In this document: positions 2,329-43,063 of the stretch, piece by piece
How positions within the stretch are numbered: position 1 is the first letter of the stretch
How the letters are laid out: the number at the start of each line of letters is the position of its first letter
Assembly (NCBI RefSeq): GCF_008974325.1
Contig: NZ_BKCG01000002.1
Coordinates: 248,001-312,000 of the forward strand
DNA length: 64,000 nt
Source of the DNA: Patiriisocius marinus
Lineage (GTDB): Bacteria > Bacteroidota > Bacteroidia > Flavobacteriales > Flavobacteriaceae
Direction of reading: 5' to 3'
Notes under the pieces: model-generated
Databases searched by the model: none
Seen by the model: the letters and a program-made list of their open reading frames with translations, nothing else
What the model was told of the DNA's origin: nothing
Translations under genes and position numbers: made by a program

Positions 2329-3957
2329 TTATTCCACCATTTCCTTTTCAATATAGAAATCATCACGAATATAAAATTCTCTAATATCTCCTATATTTTC
2401 AGTTGTTTTCCATTCGAATGTAGGGTAAATCCATTTTGGCTTTCCATTAATAAGCACTTCTAAGGGCATATCAAATCCATCTACTACGTTTAGATACCTG
2501 TACGATAATTCATTACGAACATATTTGTATTCTAGCTTAGGTATCATGGTAGTACGTAAGTATTGCTCAAAAAACTGCGTTAAATCAATCCCAGATGCAT
2601 TACTTATATAGTTTTCCACTTGTTTAGACGATACAATTTGATGTTTAAAATCGGAGTTTAATCCTCTTAAAATATCTCTCCATTTTTTATCATCTTCAAT
2701 AAGTTGTCTAATAGTGTGCAACATATTAGCGCCTTTATAATACATATCGCTACTACCTTCATTTGCAAAGCCGTATTCACCAATTAAAGGACGATCGTTT
2801 TGGATTCTTTCTCTAGTACCAACAACGTATTCACTAGATGCTTCTTTGCTGAAATGATAATCAAGAAATAAATTTTCAGAATAAGCCGTAAAACCTTCAT
2901 GAATCCACATATCTGCAACGTCACTGTTAGTGATATTATTAGCAAACCATTCGTGACCAGACTCGTGAATAATAATAAAATCGAAACGTAGTCCCCAACC
3001 TGAACCAGATAGATCATTTCCTAAATAACCATTTTGGTATTTGTTTCCGTACGTAACACTACTTTGATGTTCCATCCCCAAATAAGGAACTTCCACAAGC
3101 TTATAACTATCCTCGTAAAATGGATATGGACCAAACCAATATTCAAATGCATTTAACATTAACGGTACTTGCTCAAACTGTGTTTTTGCTTTTTCAAGAT
3201 TATAAGATAATACGTAATAGTCTACATCAAGCATACCAGCAACACCCTCGTGTTTATAATCAAAATGAACATAATCACCCACATTAATATTTACACCGTA
3301 ATTGTTAATTGGGTTGATAACTTTCCAATTCCAAGTTTTAGTTTTTCCGTTATCTACTTCGGAAATAAGACGACCATTACCCACACCCATTAAATTAGAA
3401 GGAGTAGTAATAGCTAAATCTATTCCATTATCTGGCTCATCTGAAGGGTGATCTTTACAAGGCCACCAAACGCTCGCGCCTATACCTTGGTTAGAAGTCG
3501 CAACAAAATCGTTACCATTATCATCTTTTTTCCAACTTAATCCACCATCCCACGGTGCATTTTTTGCGACAATAGGTTTTCCTGAAAAAGTGATGGTAAT
3601 TTTGTTTTCATCACCAACCGATTGTTTCTTTTTTAGCTTTATAAAGTAATGTGATTTTTCTTTTACTTTATATTTTAATTTTTTTCCGTCCTGTGTAATT
3701 TTATCAATTTCCATAGGCGATTGCAAGTCAATTTGCATCACCTTTTCAGAATCTAAAACAGTATAGGTAATTACATTAGTACCCTCTAGCATTTGCTTTT
3801 TTGGGTTTACATCTACAGATAAGTCGTAGTGTTGTACATCAAACCATACTCGCTCATCAGTCAAGGCTCCTTTAAGTTCATCTGCTTTAGTGAAGTCTTG
3901 AGCAAATAGTACAATACTTGAAAGTATTGAAAGAAAGGATAATAAGTATTTTTTCAT
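2329..3957 (-). CDS. M1 family zinc aminopeptidase, exported
   Basis: 542 residues with a signal peptide (MKKYLLSFLSILSSIVLFAQ). The M1 hallmarks are present: an exopeptidase motif of the GxMEN type written here as LGMEHQ near residue 292, the zinc motif HESGH near residue 330, and the third zinc ligand in WIHEGFTAYSE about 20 residues later. The N-terminal beta domain (YDLSVDVNPKKQMLEGTN) fits the aminopeptidase N fold. The enzyme should remove N-terminal residues from peptides in the periplasm or at the cell surface. It lacks the long C-terminal helical domain of E. coli PepN, as many short Bacteroidota M1 enzymes do. The downstream YdeI-like gene follows after 9 bp. Confidence 0.93.
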   Translation of the reverse strand: MKKYLLSFLSILSSIVLFAQDFTKADELKGALTDERVWFDVQHYDLSVDVNPKKQMLEGTNVITYTVLDSEKVMQIDLQSPMEIDKITQDGKKLKYKVKEKSHYFIKLKKKQSVGDENKITITFSGKPIVAKNAPWDGGLSWKKDDNGNDFVATSNQGIGASVWWPCKDHPSDEPDNGIDLAITTPSNLMGVGNGRLISEVDNGKTKTWNWKVINPINNYGVNINVGDYVHFDYKHEGVAGMLDVDYYVLSYNLEKAKTQFEQVPLMLNAFEYWFGPYPFYEDSYKLVEVPYLGMEHQSSVTYGNKYQNGYLGNDLSGSGWGLRFDFIIIHESGHEWFANNITNSDVADMWIHEGFTAYSENLFLDYHFSKEASSEYVVGTRERIQNDRPLIGEYGFANEGSSDMYYKGANMLHTIRQLIEDDKKWRDILRGLNSDFKHQIVSSKQVENYISNASGIDLTQFFEQYLRTTMIPKLEYKYVRNELSYRYLNVVDGFDMPLEVLINGKPKWIYPTFEWKTTENIGDIREFYIRDDFYIEKEMVE

Positions 3958-4064
3958 CTAGTAATTGTTCTTTTTTATCAAACCACAATATAAGTATTCT
4001 ATGATATTATTTTATTGAGATTTTAATGTTTTTGTAGAAGAGTCGTTGTCCCTTTTATCTTGTT

Positions 4065-4760
4065 TTAGTCACCTAATAATAAGGGTAATGCAAATAATCC
4101 ATTATTGAGTACATGCAAACATATAGCAAGCAATATTCCAGATTTTAAACGGGCATAACTAAAAACGAAACCCGCTAACAGATGTGGGAGCATTAATAAT
4201 GGTAGATAAATTAAAATTGCGTTATCTAGTTTGAAATTAGTAATGTGTAAAAACGTAAAACTGAAAAGCAAAAAATAGAATAATAATAGCCTATTTTTTT
4301 TCCAAAAGTCTTTTAGTTTTTGCAGTAGCTTATTTTTTAATACTAAACTGAAAAGTAAAGTAATTACAGCAACCATTATTAAGCATATATACCATTCTAA
4401 TTGAATAATAATTTTTAGAAAAATATATGTTATCCCAGCAATAAAAAAGAGCACGTTAGTTTTAGAAAATTTTAATCCAAGCCTAAAAGTAAGCTCTTCT
4501 AAAATAGGAGCGATGAGTGCAACTAAAGTAAATTTCAACAAACCATTATAGTTGTCAAATTCAAGGTCATTAGCGACTTTAGGTATAGTTACTGAAGCAG
4601 ATAATTCAATTCCAAGAACTAATGCTAAATAAAGAATTTTAAATAAAATTAAAATAATAAATAACTTTATTAATAGGCTAAATGATTTGCTAAAATCACT
4701 TTTTCCTTGTTCAACATTTCCAGTTTTAGCTAAAAGCCAAAGGTTGTTTAATATGTTCAA
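4065..4760 (-). CDS. CPBP family intramembrane glutamic protease
   Basis: 231 residues and strongly hydrophobic, with about seven membrane segments. The conserved family motifs are visible: EELTFRLGL (EExxxR), followed by the paired later motifs around FLHITNF and LMLPHLLAGFVFSYARLKSG. These mark the CPBP (CAAX protease and bacteriocin-processing) family, related to Rce1. In bacteria, members process peptides or act in immunity to self-made peptides; the substrate here is unknown. It stands alone, with no adjacent bacteriocin or peptide gene that I can see. Confidence 0.88.
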   Translation of the reverse strand: MNILNNLWLLAKTGNVEQGKSDFSKSFSLLIKLFIILILFKILYLALVLGIELSASVTIPKVANDLEFDNYNGLLKFTLVALIAPILEELTFRLGLKFSKTNVLFFIAGITYIFLKIIIQLEWYICLIMVAVITLLFSLVLKNKLLQKLKDFWKKNRLLLFYFLLFSFTFLHITNFKLDNAILIYLPLLMLPHLLAGFVFSYARLKSGILLAICLHVLNNGLFALPLLLGD

Positions 4761-4830
4761 AGTTGTAATTTAAATTTATAGACTTGCACCTTTTAAATAA
4801 GGACTACGTTCAGTTATTACAATACACTTA

Positions 4831-5214
4831 TCAAGTAGCATCATTTACTTCAATCCAATAGCCATTGGGATCTTGAAAATATACCTGTCTAATTCCATCT
4901 TTTCTAATATAGTTTTTTTCAGAAGTGTCACGCCAATCTGAATAGGGGATTTCCAATTCATTTAAAAGTGTTACAAAGGAATTAAATTTAGTAGTCGATA
5001 AAGCAAAATGAACAGCTTTATTTGTTATTATTTTAGCATTTGGACGAGGAATAAGATGAAGTTGTTTTCCATCGCTAATAGATAGCCATTTAGTTGCTGA
5101 GCTAGAAGCTGTATTCTCAATTTCTTTAAACTGAAATACCTTTTGATAAAACTTTAGAGAAGTTTCAACGTCCTTTACCGAAAGCGCAATATGATTAAAT
5201 AGAAAAGTAGTCAT
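4831..5214 (-). CDS. VOC (glyoxalase/bleomycin-resistance fold) family protein
   Basis: 127 residues forming two beta-alpha-beta-beta-beta modules typical of the vicinal oxygen chelate superfamily: HIALSVKDVETSLKFYQKVF at the start and VYFQDPNGYWIEVND at the end. The candidate metal ligands are the first His (residue 8), a second His in AVHFALS and the Glu in WIEVND. The substrate cannot be told from sequence; lactoylglutathione lyase-like or other isomerase or dioxygenase roles are possible. It is a single gene on the minus strand. Confidence 0.88.
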   Translation of the reverse strand: MTTFLFNHIALSVKDVETSLKFYQKVFQFKEIENTASSSATKWLSISDGKQLHLIPRPNAKIITNKAVHFALSTTKFNSFVTLLNELEIPYSDWRDTSEKNYIRKDGIRQVYFQDPNGYWIEVNDAT

Positions 5215-5310
5215 TAGTTACAATTAAAATTAGAAATTTAGTAATGGTGTTTAGTGACTATAAATTGTATGTGTATTTGGTTTTATACTGTATTAGGCAC
5301 TGGCAATTTT

Positions 5311-5889
5311 TTAGTTCAAATTTTCTAAAAAGTCAATTAATGGTAAAATTCTTTTATTATTTTCTTTTTTTCTATTTTCTATAGAATAATACATCACGCA
5401 AATCATTAAAACTGTGAAAATAATGTGAATAAATATCCTAACAGTTATTGATACATAGAATTTTTGTAAAACATCAATGTAGCCTATATTTATTCCTAAA
5501 ACTAATAGAAATGTATAGAACCACATATATCTTGATGTAGTTAACATTCGTTGTTTTAGTTTATGAATAAGGTTTTTTATATACTTATGATTATTTAATT
5601 CAGCATCATTGCTTATTAAACGATACTTACTTTTATAAGATTGGATTAGTATCATCATCATACCAAAACTAACTATGACGATAGTAATTAAATAATATAT
5701 ATTTGAGAGTATAGGAAGTAATAATGCTAAAACAATTATCGTAACTGGTACAGCAACGAGTAAAATGATTCTTTCTAATTTTCCTTTCTTTTCAATTTTG
5801 TTTAAATGAATAATCAACTTACTTACATCTAAAGGTGTCGACTTTTCTTCTTTCCAAAGGTTTTGCCAATTTGTAATATCTTTCTCCAT
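5311..5889 (-). CDS. Four-helix membrane protein downstream of ECF sigma factor
   Basis: 192 residues with two hydrophobic pairs: ILLVAVPVTIIVLALLLPIL and YLITIVIVSFGMMMILI around residues 42-85, then YMWFYTFLLVLGINIGYI and ITVRIFIHIIFTVLMICVMY around 120-170. The N-terminus is cytoplasmic-looking (WQNLWKEEKSTPLDVSKLI). It begins 2 bp after the stop of the ECF sigma gene, so it is translated from the same message. By position it could be the sigma factor's membrane regulator, but it has neither the zinc-binding anti-sigma motif nor a FecR-like domain. I recognise no named family. Confidence 0.7.
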   Translation of the reverse strand: MEKDITNWQNLWKEEKSTPLDVSKLIIHLNKIEKKGKLERIILLVAVPVTIIVLALLLPILSNIYYLITIVIVSFGMMMILIQSYKSKYRLISNDAELNNHKYIKNLIHKLKQRMLTTSRYMWFYTFLLVLGINIGYIDVLQKFYVSITVRIFIHIIFTVLMICVMYYSIENRKKENNKRILPLIDFLENLN

Positions 5890-39776: not shown

Positions 39777-40820
39777 ATGAAAAAATATTTTCTTACACTT
39801 TTTGCCGCATTATTATTGATATCCTGCGGAAATGATACAACATCTACATTTACTTCGGTTGAAATAACACCTATTTTTTCTGATAGTTTAAGCGTTCGTG
39901 CAATAGCGCCACAAGATGCTACTAAAGTATGGTTTGCTGCAAATAAAGGTATTGTAGGTTTAATTGATGGTAAGACCCCTAAAGTTGCAACTATCAAATA
40001 TGGGGACAGTATTCTCAATTTTAGAGCAATAGCTAAATCTGGGAATAATGTATTTGTTTTGAGTATAGAAAACCCTGCTGTTTTGTATAAAATTAAGTCT
40101 AATGGAATAGAAGCTGAAAGTATGGAGGAGGTTTATACGGAAGAGGGTGAAGGTGTTTTTTATGATGCAATTACTTTTTGGAATGAAAAAGAAGGTATTG
40201 CGATGGGTGACCCAATTAATGGATGTCTATCAATAATTATAACACGTGACGGTGGGAATACGTGGAATAAAATTTCTTGTGAAAATTTACCGCCAGTCTT
40301 TAAGGGTGAAGCAGCATTTGCAGCTAGTAACACTAATATTGCGGTGAAAGGAGATAAAGCTTGGATTGCAACAGGAGGGAAGCGTGCTAGAATTTTTTAT
40401 ACGGCTGATAAAGGTGAAAATTGGGAGGTTTTTAATACACCAATAATTCAAGGTGATGTTATGACGGGAATTTATAGTGTTGATTTTTATAATGAGGAGA
40501 TAGGAGTTATTGTAGGAGGAAATTGGGAAAAACAAGATTTTAATGAGGGTAATAAAGCAATAACACGTGATGGTGGTAAAACTTGGCAATTATTAAGTAA
40601 TGGCAGTGGACCAGGCTATCGTTCTTGCATTAAGTTTATTCCTGGAACTAAAGGTAAGGGATTAATTGCTGTGGGTTCACCAGGAATATCATATAGTAAT
40701 GATCAAGGTAACACGTGGACAGAACTCTCTACTGATGGGTTTTACACAGTATCGTTTGTGAATGATTCACTTGCTTTTGCTAGTGGGAGATATAAGATTT
40801 CAAAGCTCTTGTTTCGTTAA
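39777..40820 (+). CDS. Ycf48-like beta-propeller lipoprotein
   Basis: 347 residues with a lipoprotein signal (MKKYFLTLFAALLLISCG, Cys17). Blades carry BNR/Asp-box motifs: ITRDGGNTWNKIS, YTADKGENWEVFN, ITRDGGKTWQLLS, YSNDQGNTWTELS. These are shared by Ycf48/HCF136-type and sialidase-like propellers. Such proteins are often annotated as oxidoreductases without proof. A + strand -7 box (TACTTTTG, 39683-39690) lies about 85 bp upstream, facing away from the methylase promoter. Its role in the envelope is unknown. Confidence 0.85.
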   Translation: MKKYFLTLFAALLLISCGNDTTSTFTSVEITPIFSDSLSVRAIAPQDATKVWFAANKGIVGLIDGKTPKVATIKYGDSILNFRAIAKSGNNVFVLSIENPAVLYKIKSNGIEAESMEEVYTEEGEGVFYDAITFWNEKEGIAMGDPINGCLSIIITRDGGNTWNKISCENLPPVFKGEAAFAASNTNIAVKGDKAWIATGGKRARIFYTADKGENWEVFNTPIIQGDVMTGIYSVDFYNEEIGVIVGGNWEKQDFNEGNKAITRDGGKTWQLLSNGSGPGYRSCIKFIPGTKGKGLIAVGSPGISYSNDQGNTWTELSTDGFYTVSFVNDSLAFASGRYKISKLLFR

Positions 40821-40864
40821 TTAATAGATTAAGCGTTATTTAATACGATTAAATGTAAGATTTG

Positions 40865-40895
40865 TTTGTTTGTAGGAATTTTCTTTATATATTTG
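40865..40895 (+). promoter_or_regulatory. Promoter of small RNA 1
   Basis: TTTG at 40865-40868, 19 bp, then TATATTTG at 40888-40895: an excellent match to the Bacteroidota TTTG/TAnnTTTG consensus. No protein gene lies downstream on this strand before the terminator at 40952. Confidence 0.75.
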
Positions 40896-40900
40896 CTTCA

Positions 40901-40990
40901 GGTTAATTCTTGAACTTTTATATATGCCTCAAACATTTTAAAAGATTCAGTAATGACGGGACTAAGCGGGGGCTATCCCGTCATTTTTTT
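40901..40990 (+). ncRNA. Predicted small RNA 1 (about 90 nt)
   Basis: Between a consensus promoter and a strong terminator the transcript would hold a first hairpin (40915-40944, CUUUUA with UAAAAG as closing stem) with UGCCUCAA in its loop. A GC-rich 3' hairpin follows (AATGACGGGA with TCCCGTCATT, 40952-40985), then eight T. The frame MPQTF-stop is too short to be a gene. It resembles unit 2 in layout. It lies in the 419-bp gap between two convergent genes. Confidence 0.6.
40952..40990 (+). terminator. Terminator hairpin of small RNA 1
   Basis: AATGACGGGA and TCCCGTCATT form a perfect 10-bp stem around ACTAAGCGGGGGCTA-like loop bases, followed by TTTTTTT. Confidence 0.88.
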
Positions 40991-41095
40991 TGTTTTAATA
41001 AGTCAGATTATTTGTAAGAAAAAAAATACATTTTAGCTATTGTTTAACTGATATTGTCGATTAAAAGTAGTAATTAAAGTTTAAAAGCATTTTTA

Positions 41096-41127
41096 TTTGC
41101 TTGTTTTGATATTTGCTGCTATATTTG
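41096..41127 (+). promoter_or_regulatory. Promoter of small RNA 2
   Basis: TTTG at 41096-41099, a 20-bp spacer, then TATATTTG at 41120-41127: the same -7 octamer as unit 1. Confidence 0.75.
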
Positions 41128-41132
41128 ATATA

Positions 41133-41217
41133 GACATAAAGTATATAATGTTATAAATGCCCTAAGTTTATAGCATTAAACCAAAAAAGAACGGAGTCCC
41201 AACCGTTCTTTTTTTTG
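41133..41217 (+). ncRNA. Predicted small RNA 2 (about 85 nt)
   Basis: AATGTTATAAA and TTTATAGCATT (41147-41177) form an 11-bp stem with one G.U pair and the 9-nt loop UGCCCUAAG. A terminator hairpin follows at 41185-41217. Its ATGCC lies 29 bp after the -7 box, against 28 bp in unit 1. The two loops, UGCCUCAA and UGCCCUAA, are almost the same although the stems differ in sequence. Confidence 0.6.
41185..41217 (+). terminator. Terminator hairpin of small RNA 2
   Basis: AAAAAGAACGG and CCGTTCTTTTT form the stem, with eight T following. It can also end the convergent ABC transporter transcript from the minus strand, whose stop is at 41240. Confidence 0.9.
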
Positions 41218-41239
41218 TATAATATTTTCTGATAAAATT

Positions 41240-43063
41240 TTACGCTAAACTCTGCATTTCTACAAGATTGTAGTAAGATCCTTTTTTATCAATAAGTTCT
41301 GCATGTGTACCTTGCTCAATAATTTGTCCTTTACTTAAAACAATAATACTATCTGCGGACTGTATTGTGGAAAGGCGGTGTGCTATGACAATAGAAGTTC
41401 TATTTTTCATCATATTTTCTAAAGCATCTTGAACTAAGCGTTCGCTTTCAGTATCTAAGGCAGAAGTAGCTTCGTCTAAAATCATTAAAGGTGGATTTTT
41501 CAATACAGCTCTTGCAATACTTAAACGTTGTTTTTGTCCACCACTCAATTTATTTCCACTATCACCTATATTTGTTTCAATTCCTTTAGGTAAATCTTTC
41601 ACAAATTCCCAAGCATTAGCGATTTTCAATGCATCGATCATTTCGGCTTCGCTTGCATCTATTTTTCCTATTTTAAGGTTTTCCTTAATAGTGTCATTAA
41701 ATAGAATAGAATCTTGTGTTACTAAGCCCATTAAGCCACGCAGTGATTTCTGTGTCATATTTTTAATGTCTATTCCGTCAATACTTATTGTTCCTTTATT
41801 TACGTCATAAAAACGCGTTACAAGGTTAGCAATAGTACTTTTTCCACTTCCGCTTTGTCCCACAAGTGCTACGGTAGAACCTTTAGGAACTTGTAAGTTA
41901 AAATCTTTTAATACCCATTCATCTTCATATTTAAACGAAATATTATTGATGAACATTTCTTCTTTAAAATCAGATTTAGTGATGGCATCCGGTGCATCTT
42001 TAATTGCAGATTCAGTTTCTAATATTTCAAGAACACGTTCCGCAGCTGCGTTTCCTCTTTTAATACTAGAATTTGCTTTACTTATTGCTTTAGCAGGAGT
42101 CAAAATCTGGTAGGCGAGTGCCATATATACCAAAAAGGCTTCAGGTTCTAGCGATTTTTCAACGAGCACCATTTGGCCACCGTACCATAGTAATGTAGCA
42201 ATTGTAACAATTCCTAAAAACTCACTGGCTGGTGAGGCTAAGTTTTGTCTATTTAATAGAATATTAGCAGATTTAAATAAGCGCCCCGTAGACTCTCTAA
42301 ATTTTCCGCTAAATATTTTTTCAGCATTAAAACCTTTGATAATTTTTAATCCTCCTAAGGTTTCTTCTAAAATAGAAAGAAATACACCTTGTTCTTGTTG
42401 AACTTTATCACTGTGCTTTTTTAAACTTTTACTTATAACTGAAATTATTATTCCAGAAACTGGAATAAAAATAAATACAAACAAAGTAAGCTTGGCACTA
42501 ATAAGTAACATTGCGCCAATGGCAAACAATATCATTAATGGCTCACGTACAATTAGTTCTAAAATAGATAAAAATGAATGTTGAATTTCTTGTACATCAT
42601 TTGTTATTCTAGCAATAGTATCACCTTTTCTCTTTTCAGAATAAAATGAAACAGGTAGGTCTATTGTCTTGTCATAAAGGTCATTGCGTAAATCCTTTAA
42701 CACCCCATTTCTTAGGAAGGTGATGAAAAACATAGCTAAATAACCAAAAAGGTTTTTAAGTAAAAAAGTAGCAACTACAAGTATTACCATAAAAATAAGT
42801 ACATCATCAACACCTTCAATTTCTTTTTGTGTCACAAAGTAATTTAAATATTGTTCAGCATAATCTTTAGCATTTGTAATTCCGGTCCATTTTGGTTCTA
42901 CAAAAAGTTTTTCAGTATCGCCAAATAGTACTGAGAGCATTGGGAATAGCGATACCATCGCTAAAGTCCCAAAAAGAGCGTAAAATATATTTGATACTAC
43001 GTTTAGCCAAGCATATGTTTTGTAAGGTGCTGCGTATCGTAGTATTTTTCTAAATGATGTCAT
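41240..43063 (-). CDS. ABC transporter, fused permease/ATPase (MsbA-like exporter)
   Basis: 607 residues, the size of a half-transporter. The N-terminal six-helix membrane domain (residues 15-330) contains the NDVQEIQHSFLSILE coupling region. The ATPase domain has Walker A VALVGQSGSGKSTIAN, Q-loop MGLVTQDSILF, signature LSGGQKQRLSIARAVL, Walker B LMILDEATSALD and the H-loop VIAHRLSTIQ. It would work as a homodimer in the inner membrane. The closest role is MsbA-type flipping of lipid A core or other lipids, but drug export cannot be excluded. It lies downstream of and on the same strand as the phosphohexomutase gene. Confidence 0.92.
   Translation of the reverse strand: MTSFRKILRYAAPYKTYAWLNVVSNIFYALFGTLAMVSLFPMLSVLFGDTEKLFVEPKWTGITNAKDYAEQYLNYFVTQKEIEGVDDVLIFMVILVVATFLLKNLFGYLAMFFITFLRNGVLKDLRNDLYDKTIDLPVSFYSEKRKGDTIARITNDVQEIQHSFLSILELIVREPLMILFAIGAMLLISAKLTLFVFIFIPVSGIIISVISKSLKKHSDKVQQEQGVFLSILEETLGGLKIIKGFNAEKIFSGKFRESTGRLFKSANILLNRQNLASPASEFLGIVTIATLLWYGGQMVLVEKSLEPEAFLVYMALAYQILTPAKAISKANSSIKRGNAAAERVLEILETESAIKDAPDAITKSDFKEEMFINNISFKYEDEWVLKDFNLQVPKGSTVALVGQSGSGKSTIANLVTRFYDVNKGTISIDGIDIKNMTQKSLRGLMGLVTQDSILFNDTIKENLKIGKIDASEAEMIDALKIANAWEFVKDLPKGIETNIGDSGNKLSGGQKQRLSIARAVLKNPPLMILDEATSALDTESERLVQDALENMMKNRTSIVIAHRLSTIQSADSIIVLSKGQIIEQGTHAELIDKKGSYYNLVEMQSLA

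Follow-up and report, generated by a model that had tools for sequence, protein, structure and literature searches.

Tandem C-rich small RNA units of Patiriisocius marinus as putative decoys for two conserved small RNA families of Flavobacteriaceae

The mRNAs of Bacteroidota mostly lack Shine-Dalgarno sequences, and post-transcriptional control in this phylum is little mapped beyond Bacteroides. In another phylum, the small RNA (sRNA) LhrC of Listeria has UCCC seeds and pairs with mRNAs. As summarized in its publication, LhrC is multicopy and is induced by cell envelope stress (PMC4132741). Bacterial RNA sponges, or anti-sRNAs, are the subject of a review (PMC8383071), and the summary of a more specific report describes a sponge from Caulobacter (PMC12559287). 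In Bacteroides, FopS and GibS are paralogous sRNAs of ~65–70 nt that act on the mRNAs of outer-membrane genes near the start codon; an antagonist, the protein RbpB, relieves this effect, and genomes of Bacteroidaceae have 12–15 copies of such sRNAs (PMC11697453). The nearest published flavobacterial sRNA that we found, Rfp18 of Flavobacterium psychrophilum, has metalloprotease and adhesin mRNAs as its predicted targets and its third stem-loop as the pairing region (PMC9723704). Also, a study of F. columnare lists candidate sRNAs without Rfam matches (PMC5395568). In the titles and openings of abstracts that we surveyed, we found neither an RNA pair like the one reported here nor a sponge RNA from Bacteroidetes.

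Here we describe two tandem sRNA units in "the window," which is the whole stretch of P. marinus DNA that was analyzed (64,000 nucleotides). From sequence comparisons, we propose that these units are probably a duplicated member of a Flavobacteriaceae family, which we will call C-RNAs, and that this family acts as a decoy (an RNA sponge or anti-sRNA) for two other sRNA families, which we will call G-RNA1 and G-RNA2. As in the sponges that have been summarized, a complementary segment of one small RNA would cover the seed of a second one. The proposed decoy would differ from those sponges in being a stand-alone duplicated gene that shares a DNA box with the G-RNA targets, comes from Bacteroidota, and faces a pair of sRNA families whose seeds are alike. 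LhrC, going by its summarized description and not by its sequence, resembles the C-RNAs in its repeated C-rich single-stranded motifs and in having more than one copy. But LhrC pairs with mRNAs, while the C-RNA loops look like the sites in mRNAs and have their complements in sRNAs. FopS and GibS are functional analogs of the G-RNAs and not of the C-RNA units, and the window genome has two adjacent copies of the unit instead of 12–15 paralogous copies. The likeness to Rfp18 lies in its predicted targets, in that a metalloprotease and PKD-type secreted proteins are also found behind the box here. Overall, we obtained three RNA families without Rfam matches, with explicit seeds and with a decoy that is predicted from sequence; one of the three is found in four fifths of the sampled species of Flavobacteriaceae. 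As candidates for regulating the surface and secreted proteins of common marine bacteria, these RNAs make sRNA control and decoying open to experiment in Bacteroidota.

A sequence-only reading of the window had noticed two tandem sRNA units in a gap between genes. We confirmed the two RNA units in 40820–41240, and a separate promoter and terminator are predicted for each:

39777–40820, + strand: flanking gene for a BNR/Ycf48-like repeat protein
40827–40856, + strand: direct-repeat DNA box 5' of unit 1, GATTAAGCG ... CGATTAAATGT, with a period of ~20 bp
40865–40895, + strand: unit 1 promoter, with TTTG at 40865–40868, conserved TTTGTAGG at 40869–40876, and the −7 box TATATTTG at 40888–40895
40902–40991, + strand: unit 1 small RNA (predicted; ends are approximate)
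40926–40932, + strand: unit 1 loop GCCUCAA (GCCTCAA in DNA)
40952–40991, + strand: unit 1 terminator with eight T; loop AGCGGGGGCU at 40965–40974
41058–41088, + strand: direct-repeat DNA box 5' of unit 2, CGATTAAAAG ... GTTTAAAAGC
41096–41127, + strand: unit 2 promoter, with TTTG at 41096–41099 and the −7 box TATATTTG at 41120–41127
41130–41216, + strand: unit 2 small RNA (predicted; ends are approximate)
41147–41177, + strand: unit 2 hairpin, with arms 41147–41158 and 41166–41177 and loop GCCCUAA (GCCCTAA in DNA) at 41159–41165
41183–41216, + strand: unit 2 terminator with eight T; C-rich loop AGUCCCAA at 41195–41202
41240–43063, − strand: flanking, convergent gene for an MsbA-like ABC transporter, a constant neighbor in relatives

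When we recomputed the coordinates, the TTTG and −7 elements, the spacers between them (19 bp for unit 1 and 20 bp for unit 2), and the starts of ATGCC at 28 nt (unit 1) and 29 nt (unit 2) past the −7 box were all as claimed. The strong terminators and the location between convergent genes (a gap of 40821–41239) are also as had been described. No protein leader was found at the locus, which agrees with the view that these are independent sRNAs. For the ABC gene's homolog from Altibacter lentus, MsbA is the best match, although it is under the model's cut-off (490.9 of 602 bits). Besides what had been listed, we noticed the direct repeats that precede both promoters and the C-rich loop in the terminator of unit 2, which in many relatives is AGCCCCAA. 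Judging by its sequence, this terminator could also be used by the convergent ABC gene. (A GTAGGAA element in the unit 1 promoter, at 40869–40879, is also seen in relatives; in many species it recurs, with no clear −7 box, in the spacer 5' of unit 2.) Relative to shuffled sequences, the folding of unit 1 has z = −3.24 and that of unit 2 has z = −7.19; the hairpin of unit 1 on its own is weak in the window species (z = −1.87, with 13 of 200 shuffles equally good).

We found no support for membership in Flavo-1 or another Rfam family: the window had no Rfam matches at the gathering threshold, to Flavo-1 or otherwise. It had 19 sub-threshold matches, of which the best by E-value was ctRNA_pT181 (31.6 of 56 bits), and 15 loci from relatives had a single sub-threshold match (MicX in L033). 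By eye, we rejected a small peptide starting from ATGCCTCAA, as unit 2 would give MP-stop and relatives lack the ATG.

Comparison of eight genomes from the same genus supports the idea of a constant loop on changing stems. The 7-nt loop is unchanged across these genomes, while the stems covary: in unit 1, nine pairs changed on both sides (versus 2.5 in shuffles) and 95.8% of cells are paired (versus 41–54% when the alignment is slid), and in unit 2, 12 pairs changed on both sides (versus 2.8) and 95.6% of cells are paired (versus 31–56%). Because the covariation persists in a joint alignment of both units, we consider units 1 and 2 to be one RNA family. BLASTN detected unit 1 in another six genomes of the genus (E ≤ 1.5e-22, 76–81% identity) and in G008 (E = 1.3e-9, 70% identity). 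Within the window genome (G000), BLASTN found the locus itself only, with other matches no better than E = 0.06, and our first covariance model (R1, below) found two adjacent copies. Unit 2 is ~225–235 nt downstream of unit 1 in seven of the eight genomes; in G003, it is 122 nt behind unit 1 and has no visible −7 box. In G005 (L088 and L016), we found a unit-1-like terminator alone, with a AGCGGGGGCT loop, and neither a C-rich loop nor unit 2; this is a probable remnant. There was no convincing match to the units in G006 (100% complete) or G009 (59% complete). As to whether close relatives keep the loop and the promoters, then, seven same-genus genomes retain the pair, and G005, G006, and G003 depart.

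Model R1 was built from the 16 units of the eight same-genus genomes and run on 299 genomes of the family. (Among these 299 genomes, which we also searched with the R2 and R3 models described below, are some that supplied training sequences for the models.) We read 30 R1 loci, taken from the stronger matches; 22 of them, including the window, carry the pair's motif at the match, and all 22 adjoin the same ABC gene. We took the other eight (L049–L051 and L053–L057) to be chance matches, with no ABC gene and no motif at the match. G022 adds one more tandem locus, so besides the window there are 22 further genomes with tandem units in the 299-genome sample. Five of the 22 tandem genomes found with R1 have lost the loop motif of unit 1, and none has lost that of unit 2. 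We also looked for the terminator of unit 1 in named genomes, which gave 35 records, all selected by the terminator's loop: one was a chance match within a coding stretch (L073), one was the remnant at L088, and at least 32 of the 33 others adjoin the ABC and/or the BNR gene. Carriers include Ulvibacter, Altibacter, Aureisphaera, Marinirhabdus, Cochleicola, Halomarinibacterium, and Luteirhabdus.

In a typical relative, the pair begins with two CGATAAARTGC-like repeats that are 20–21 bp apart, followed by the promoter. Unit 1 then has CATACTTCTTATGTA at its 5' end, the hairpin loop AGCCCCAA, and the terminator loop AAGCGGGGGCTG; unit 2, behind its own repeats and promoter, has CATACTTATGTA, the hairpin loop GCCCCAAAU, and the terminator loop AGCCCCAA. 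Most of the relatives that we examined add a 5' block, (AACC)UACUUAUG(UU), which is missing from the window's units. The window's copy may be decaying, because it lacks this block, because 5 of 22 tandem genomes have lost the loop of unit 1, and because G005 and G006 lack the pair.

In other genera, the corresponding gap holds just one unit, with the loop TCCCCAAAU or similar (L095, L097, L098, L102–L104, L107, L108, and L113), or a degenerate single unit (L110 and L111). In L096, L100, L101, L109, L114, and L119, there is no unit despite adjacent sigma and ABC genes. (All of these single-unit and unit-less loci were found through a nearby ECF sigma factor gene.) We saw unit 1 in the tandem clade only, and so far as sequence can tell, unit 2 is apparently the ancestral unit, retained singly in the other genera. 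Another C-RNA model (R3) had matches in 113 of the 299 genomes, of which we inspected a minority. This model does find unit 2 of the window (E = 1.6e-4); the window's sequence was not part of the model, although a unit 2 from the same genus was.

The ECF sigma gene is accompanied by genes for an uncharacterized protein of 160–170 amino acids and for an LTXXQ-like periplasmic protein, on the far side of the locus in L070, L087, L015, and the loci found through the sigma gene. In L087, this cluster (4290–5803, with a protein of 168 amino acids) is divergent from the sRNAs. We considered it as a required controller of the units, but at E ≤ 1e-20, the cluster is absent from the window genome and from G001, G003–G006, G009, and G010. 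Since G000, G001, G003, G004, and G010 retain the pair without the cluster, we rejected this idea.

The direct repeats are not limited to sRNA genes. Of 120 family genomes, 48 have a strict version of the box, and none has a reversed control pattern; the window's own copies of the repeat follow the strict pattern more loosely, and these matches do not include them. We listed 81 places with the box and read 70 of them. Setting aside 15 that bear sRNAs (L157 by hand) left 55 other sites. Among 7-mers with at least three G or C downstream of these 55 boxes, the commonest is CCCAAAT. It occurs 3' of 14 of them, whereas the other strand gave 0, the region upstream on the divergent side gave 4, and shuffles gave 0.5. 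Only a minority of the box-controlled genes have the motif in their leaders. A half-box followed 50–80 nt later by CCCCAAAT was found in 49 of 299 genomes, versus 6 for the reversed control. The 30 half-box loci that we read include single units, leaders, and some that seem to be unrelated.

Some box-controlled genes carry CCC(C)AAAU in their leaders, including those for a CAP-domain lipoprotein, for a 7TM protein in the window genome, and for a PKD-domain protein (leader with CCCCAAAT). The CAP-domain lipoprotein is the commonest (11 of the 30 half-box loci, with similar protein starts), with GCATCATGCCCCAAATTTGATGCCCCC..ATG; its CAP domain was checked against Pfam in G110 only. Several of these CAP mRNAs also have AACCUACUU behind the start codon, in an order that is fit for one antiparallel duplex with a G-RNA. 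(In L205 of G110 and similar loci, the CAP leader has a C-rich hairpin and GCCCCC(C)G(C) ahead of the start codon; the latter is complementary over ~7 nt to the terminator loop of unit 1.) Also behind the box, a gene for an M43-type metalloprotease has a leader with GCCCAAAAC. The sole strict box of the window genome (G000:C2:355699) precedes a gene for a 7TMR-DISM membrane protein (L355 863–2050, minus strand; near G000:C2:354462–355649), whose leader has GGTCCCAAATTGATTTTAACC. This protein has a sub-threshold match to a LuxR-type HTH (GerE, 22.9 of 23.5 bits), and it could belong to a sensing circuit.

Following the loop motif led us outside the window, to the two families of G-RNAs, whose seeds are CAUAAGUAGGUU and AUUUGGGGC. 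A search for CCCCAAAT near start codons exposed a string, repeated across genera, on the strand antisense to an sRNA-like gene, G-RNA1. (What looked like a conserved start of an open reading frame, CCCCAAATCTACCATGAA, is actually the antisense strand of G-RNA1.) G-RNA1 consists of a promoter, a hairpin (ACCAU:AUGGU) with the loop AACAUAAGUAGGUUAAGUUC, the linker AGAUUUGGGGC, and a terminator whose stem covaries. The window genome has one copy (L267, ~1479–1555; near G000:C1:767749). With model R2 at E ≤ 1e-4, G-RNA1 has 1–7 matches in each of 238 of the 299 family genomes. It is present in 7 of 8 further genomes of the same genus and absent from G009. In 23 genomes from other families of the order, no match was convincing (the best had E = 0.005), and phages, plasmids, and viral contigs had no match.

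A search for CCCCAAAT followed by AACCTACT found 72 of 299 genomes, compared to 24 of 299 for a reversed control, and exposed G-RNA2. It consists of ACAUAAGUAGGUU, a hairpin, AAAUUUGGGGC, and a terminator, and in the window genome it is at L349 1024–1108 (near G000:C1:510728). G-RNA2 has the same two seeds as G-RNA1, on either side of a covarying hairpin. The fold is present in all 12 of the loci that we read, which had been chosen by their two seeds; across 10 sequences, eight pairs changed on both sides (versus 3.6 in shuffles), and 97.4% of cells are paired (versus 30–49% when slid). Rfam matches to the G-RNA1 loci were below threshold only (for example, STnc430 with 36.3 of 47 bits and STnc40 with 36.0 of 45 bits). 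G-RNA2 had no Rfam match at threshold, and a sub-threshold match to GA-cis in L354 falls outside G-RNA2.

The 5' block of the C-RNAs, (AACC)UACUUAUG(UU), and their loops are complementary to the G-RNA seeds CAUAAGUAGGUU and AUUUGGGGC; in particular, AUUUGGGGC is exactly complementary to the C-RNA loop GCCCCAAAU. In several of the genera with single units, the 5' end of the unit (AACCUACUUAUGUU) is an exact complement of part of the loop of G-RNA1. To quantify this, we used 46 C-RNAs, which a script picked from 51 loci with a CCCC(T/A)AA-like loop required, and paired them with a consensus G-RNA1 rather than with each genome's own. The perfect complement between the 5' region and the G-RNA1 loop has a median length of 9 nt, versus 5.2 in shuffles. 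For the 5' block, 36 of 46 C-RNAs had p ≤ 0.05, a slightly selected result in that a C-RNA-like 5' string was preferred at loci with several candidates. For the loop, 34 of 46 passed, but this test is biased by the loop-based selection. Energies for the whole duplexes of the 46 C-RNAs were mixed.

The window's loops have changed, yet they pair with the window genome's own G-RNA1 if G.U pairs are allowed. The loop of unit 1, together with its neighbors, pairs with the linker at 9 contiguous positions (one of them G.U), and the hairpin of unit 2 forms 11 contiguous pairs (including G.U), or 14 in an unconstrained duplex. Of 14-mers from the window with equal G+C, 2.5% (unit 1) and 0.2% (unit 2) pair as well. 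At the terminator loop of unit 2, 7 positions pair, which 6% of such 14-mers match. When whole units were paired with the window genome's two G-RNAs, the duplex energies of unit 1 were not significant (as low in 81 and 84 of 300 shuffles), and those of unit 2 were borderline (20 and 27 of 300). The leader of the 7TM protein gave significant energies (2 and 0 of 300).

G-RNA1 is present in 111 of the 113 genomes with a C-RNA match, as compared to 127 of the 186 without one (Fisher's exact test, P = 7e-12, with kinship ignored); the two exceptions are 76–84% complete. Thus, like an RNA sponge, the C-RNAs co-occur with the sRNA that they would antagonize, and they appear to have conserved complementarity, beyond that expected by chance, to its seed. 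The sequence-only reading had described the loop as an exposed seed and had suggested a search for targets near start codons. It was right about the kind of element, but the best-matching partners are the two conserved sRNA families with AUUUGGGGC and not the start regions of mRNAs, so its interpretation is partly supported.

The loop is similar to the leader sites of mRNAs and not to their complement, so the units look like decoys that mimic targets. Our broader proposal, a family-wide circuit in three parts, is one that we somewhat favor. In this proposal, G-RNAs would act at the start codons of box-controlled mRNAs for envelope and secreted proteins, by pairing with CCC(C)AAAU leaders and, in some mRNAs, with AACCUACUU across the start codon. 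One transcription factor would read the CGATAAARTGC direct repeat and turn on the target mRNAs and the C-RNAs together; it is possibly a LytTR-type regulator, as the 20–21 bp period of the repeats may suggest. Each unit would offer a C-rich loop (GCCCCAAAU or wobble variants), and unit 2 would offer a second in its terminator. These loops, along with the 5' block of the relatives, would bind the G-RNA seeds AUUUGGGGC and CAUAAGUAGGUU, so that the co-induced C-RNAs titrate the G-RNAs and release or cancel their control, be it repression or activation. One clade would have doubled the decoy, with unit 1 gaining a G-rich counter-loop. The units, their covarying stems and distribution, the complementarity, the shared box, and the leader motif are seen in the sequences themselves; from these, we infer transcription, binding in the cell, titration, and the identity of the factor. 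The circuit seems to act on surface-protein genes across the Flavobacteriaceae. Because the blocks are in the same order in the C-RNAs and the G-RNAs, they cannot form a single continuous duplex; the two contacts would require two molecules or loop-loop contacts. The blocks are in the opposite order in the CAP mRNAs, as expected if the C-RNA is a trap for two seeds or molecules and not a target.

We also considered that the roles might be reversed, with the C-RNAs as regulators whose C-rich loops pair with UUUGGGG in mRNAs, like the LhrC seed, and the G-RNAs as decoys. The complementarity reads equally well in both directions, other phyla offer classical examples of C-rich loops as seeds, and the C-rich motif is in both the C-RNA unit and its terminator. 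However, we think that this is unlikely: G-RNA1 is more widespread than C-RNA (238 versus 113 of 299 genomes) and is present in 127 genomes that lack a C-RNA match, and in the leaders of co-controlled genes, as searched with the box and the C-rich motif, we see that motif and not its complement. Under the decoy model, the wider distribution of G-RNA1 implies that it should have other partners.

Another possibility is that the CCCCAAAU hairpins bind an RNA-binding protein that the units titrate, much as CsrB titrates CsrA. This would fit with the presence of the same hairpin loop in the units and in the leader of the CAP lipoprotein and with the two to three sites per tandem locus. We now view it as quite unlikely, as the exact complement of the hairpin motif is found in two conserved sRNA families, whose discovery displaced this reading, and a protein would not explain the second complementary block, which lies outside of the loop. 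We give even less credence to the idea that unit 1 acts via its G-rich terminator loop AGCGGGGGCU, on GCCCC of unit 2 and GCCCCC(C)G(C) of the CAP gene, with unit 2 as its decoy. The core of this loop, GCGGGGGC, is near-invariant across the tandem clade, and by eye, the leaders of several genomes have 6–7 bp of complement to it; but it is altered in G003 and G295, and the C-rich loops, the box, and the leaders are all more widespread than unit 1. (Such an action could coexist with our decoy model.) Finally, it is very improbable that the gap is untranscribed and that its promoters and terminators serve only as insulation for the ABC gene: transcription of the units is a prediction and the terminator of unit 2 can serve both strands by sequence, but an insulator should not have covarying hairpins with conserved loops, conserved promoters and boxes, and complementarity to sRNAs.

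We noticed that G-RNA1 is itself in tandem in several genera, with copies ~210 bp apart. Beside the G-RNA1 copies of G110 (L257, ~3900–4500) are tandem repeats of ~105 bp that contain AGATTTGGGGC, a poly-A stretch, and GGTAAAC; this array is possibly derived from G-RNA1.
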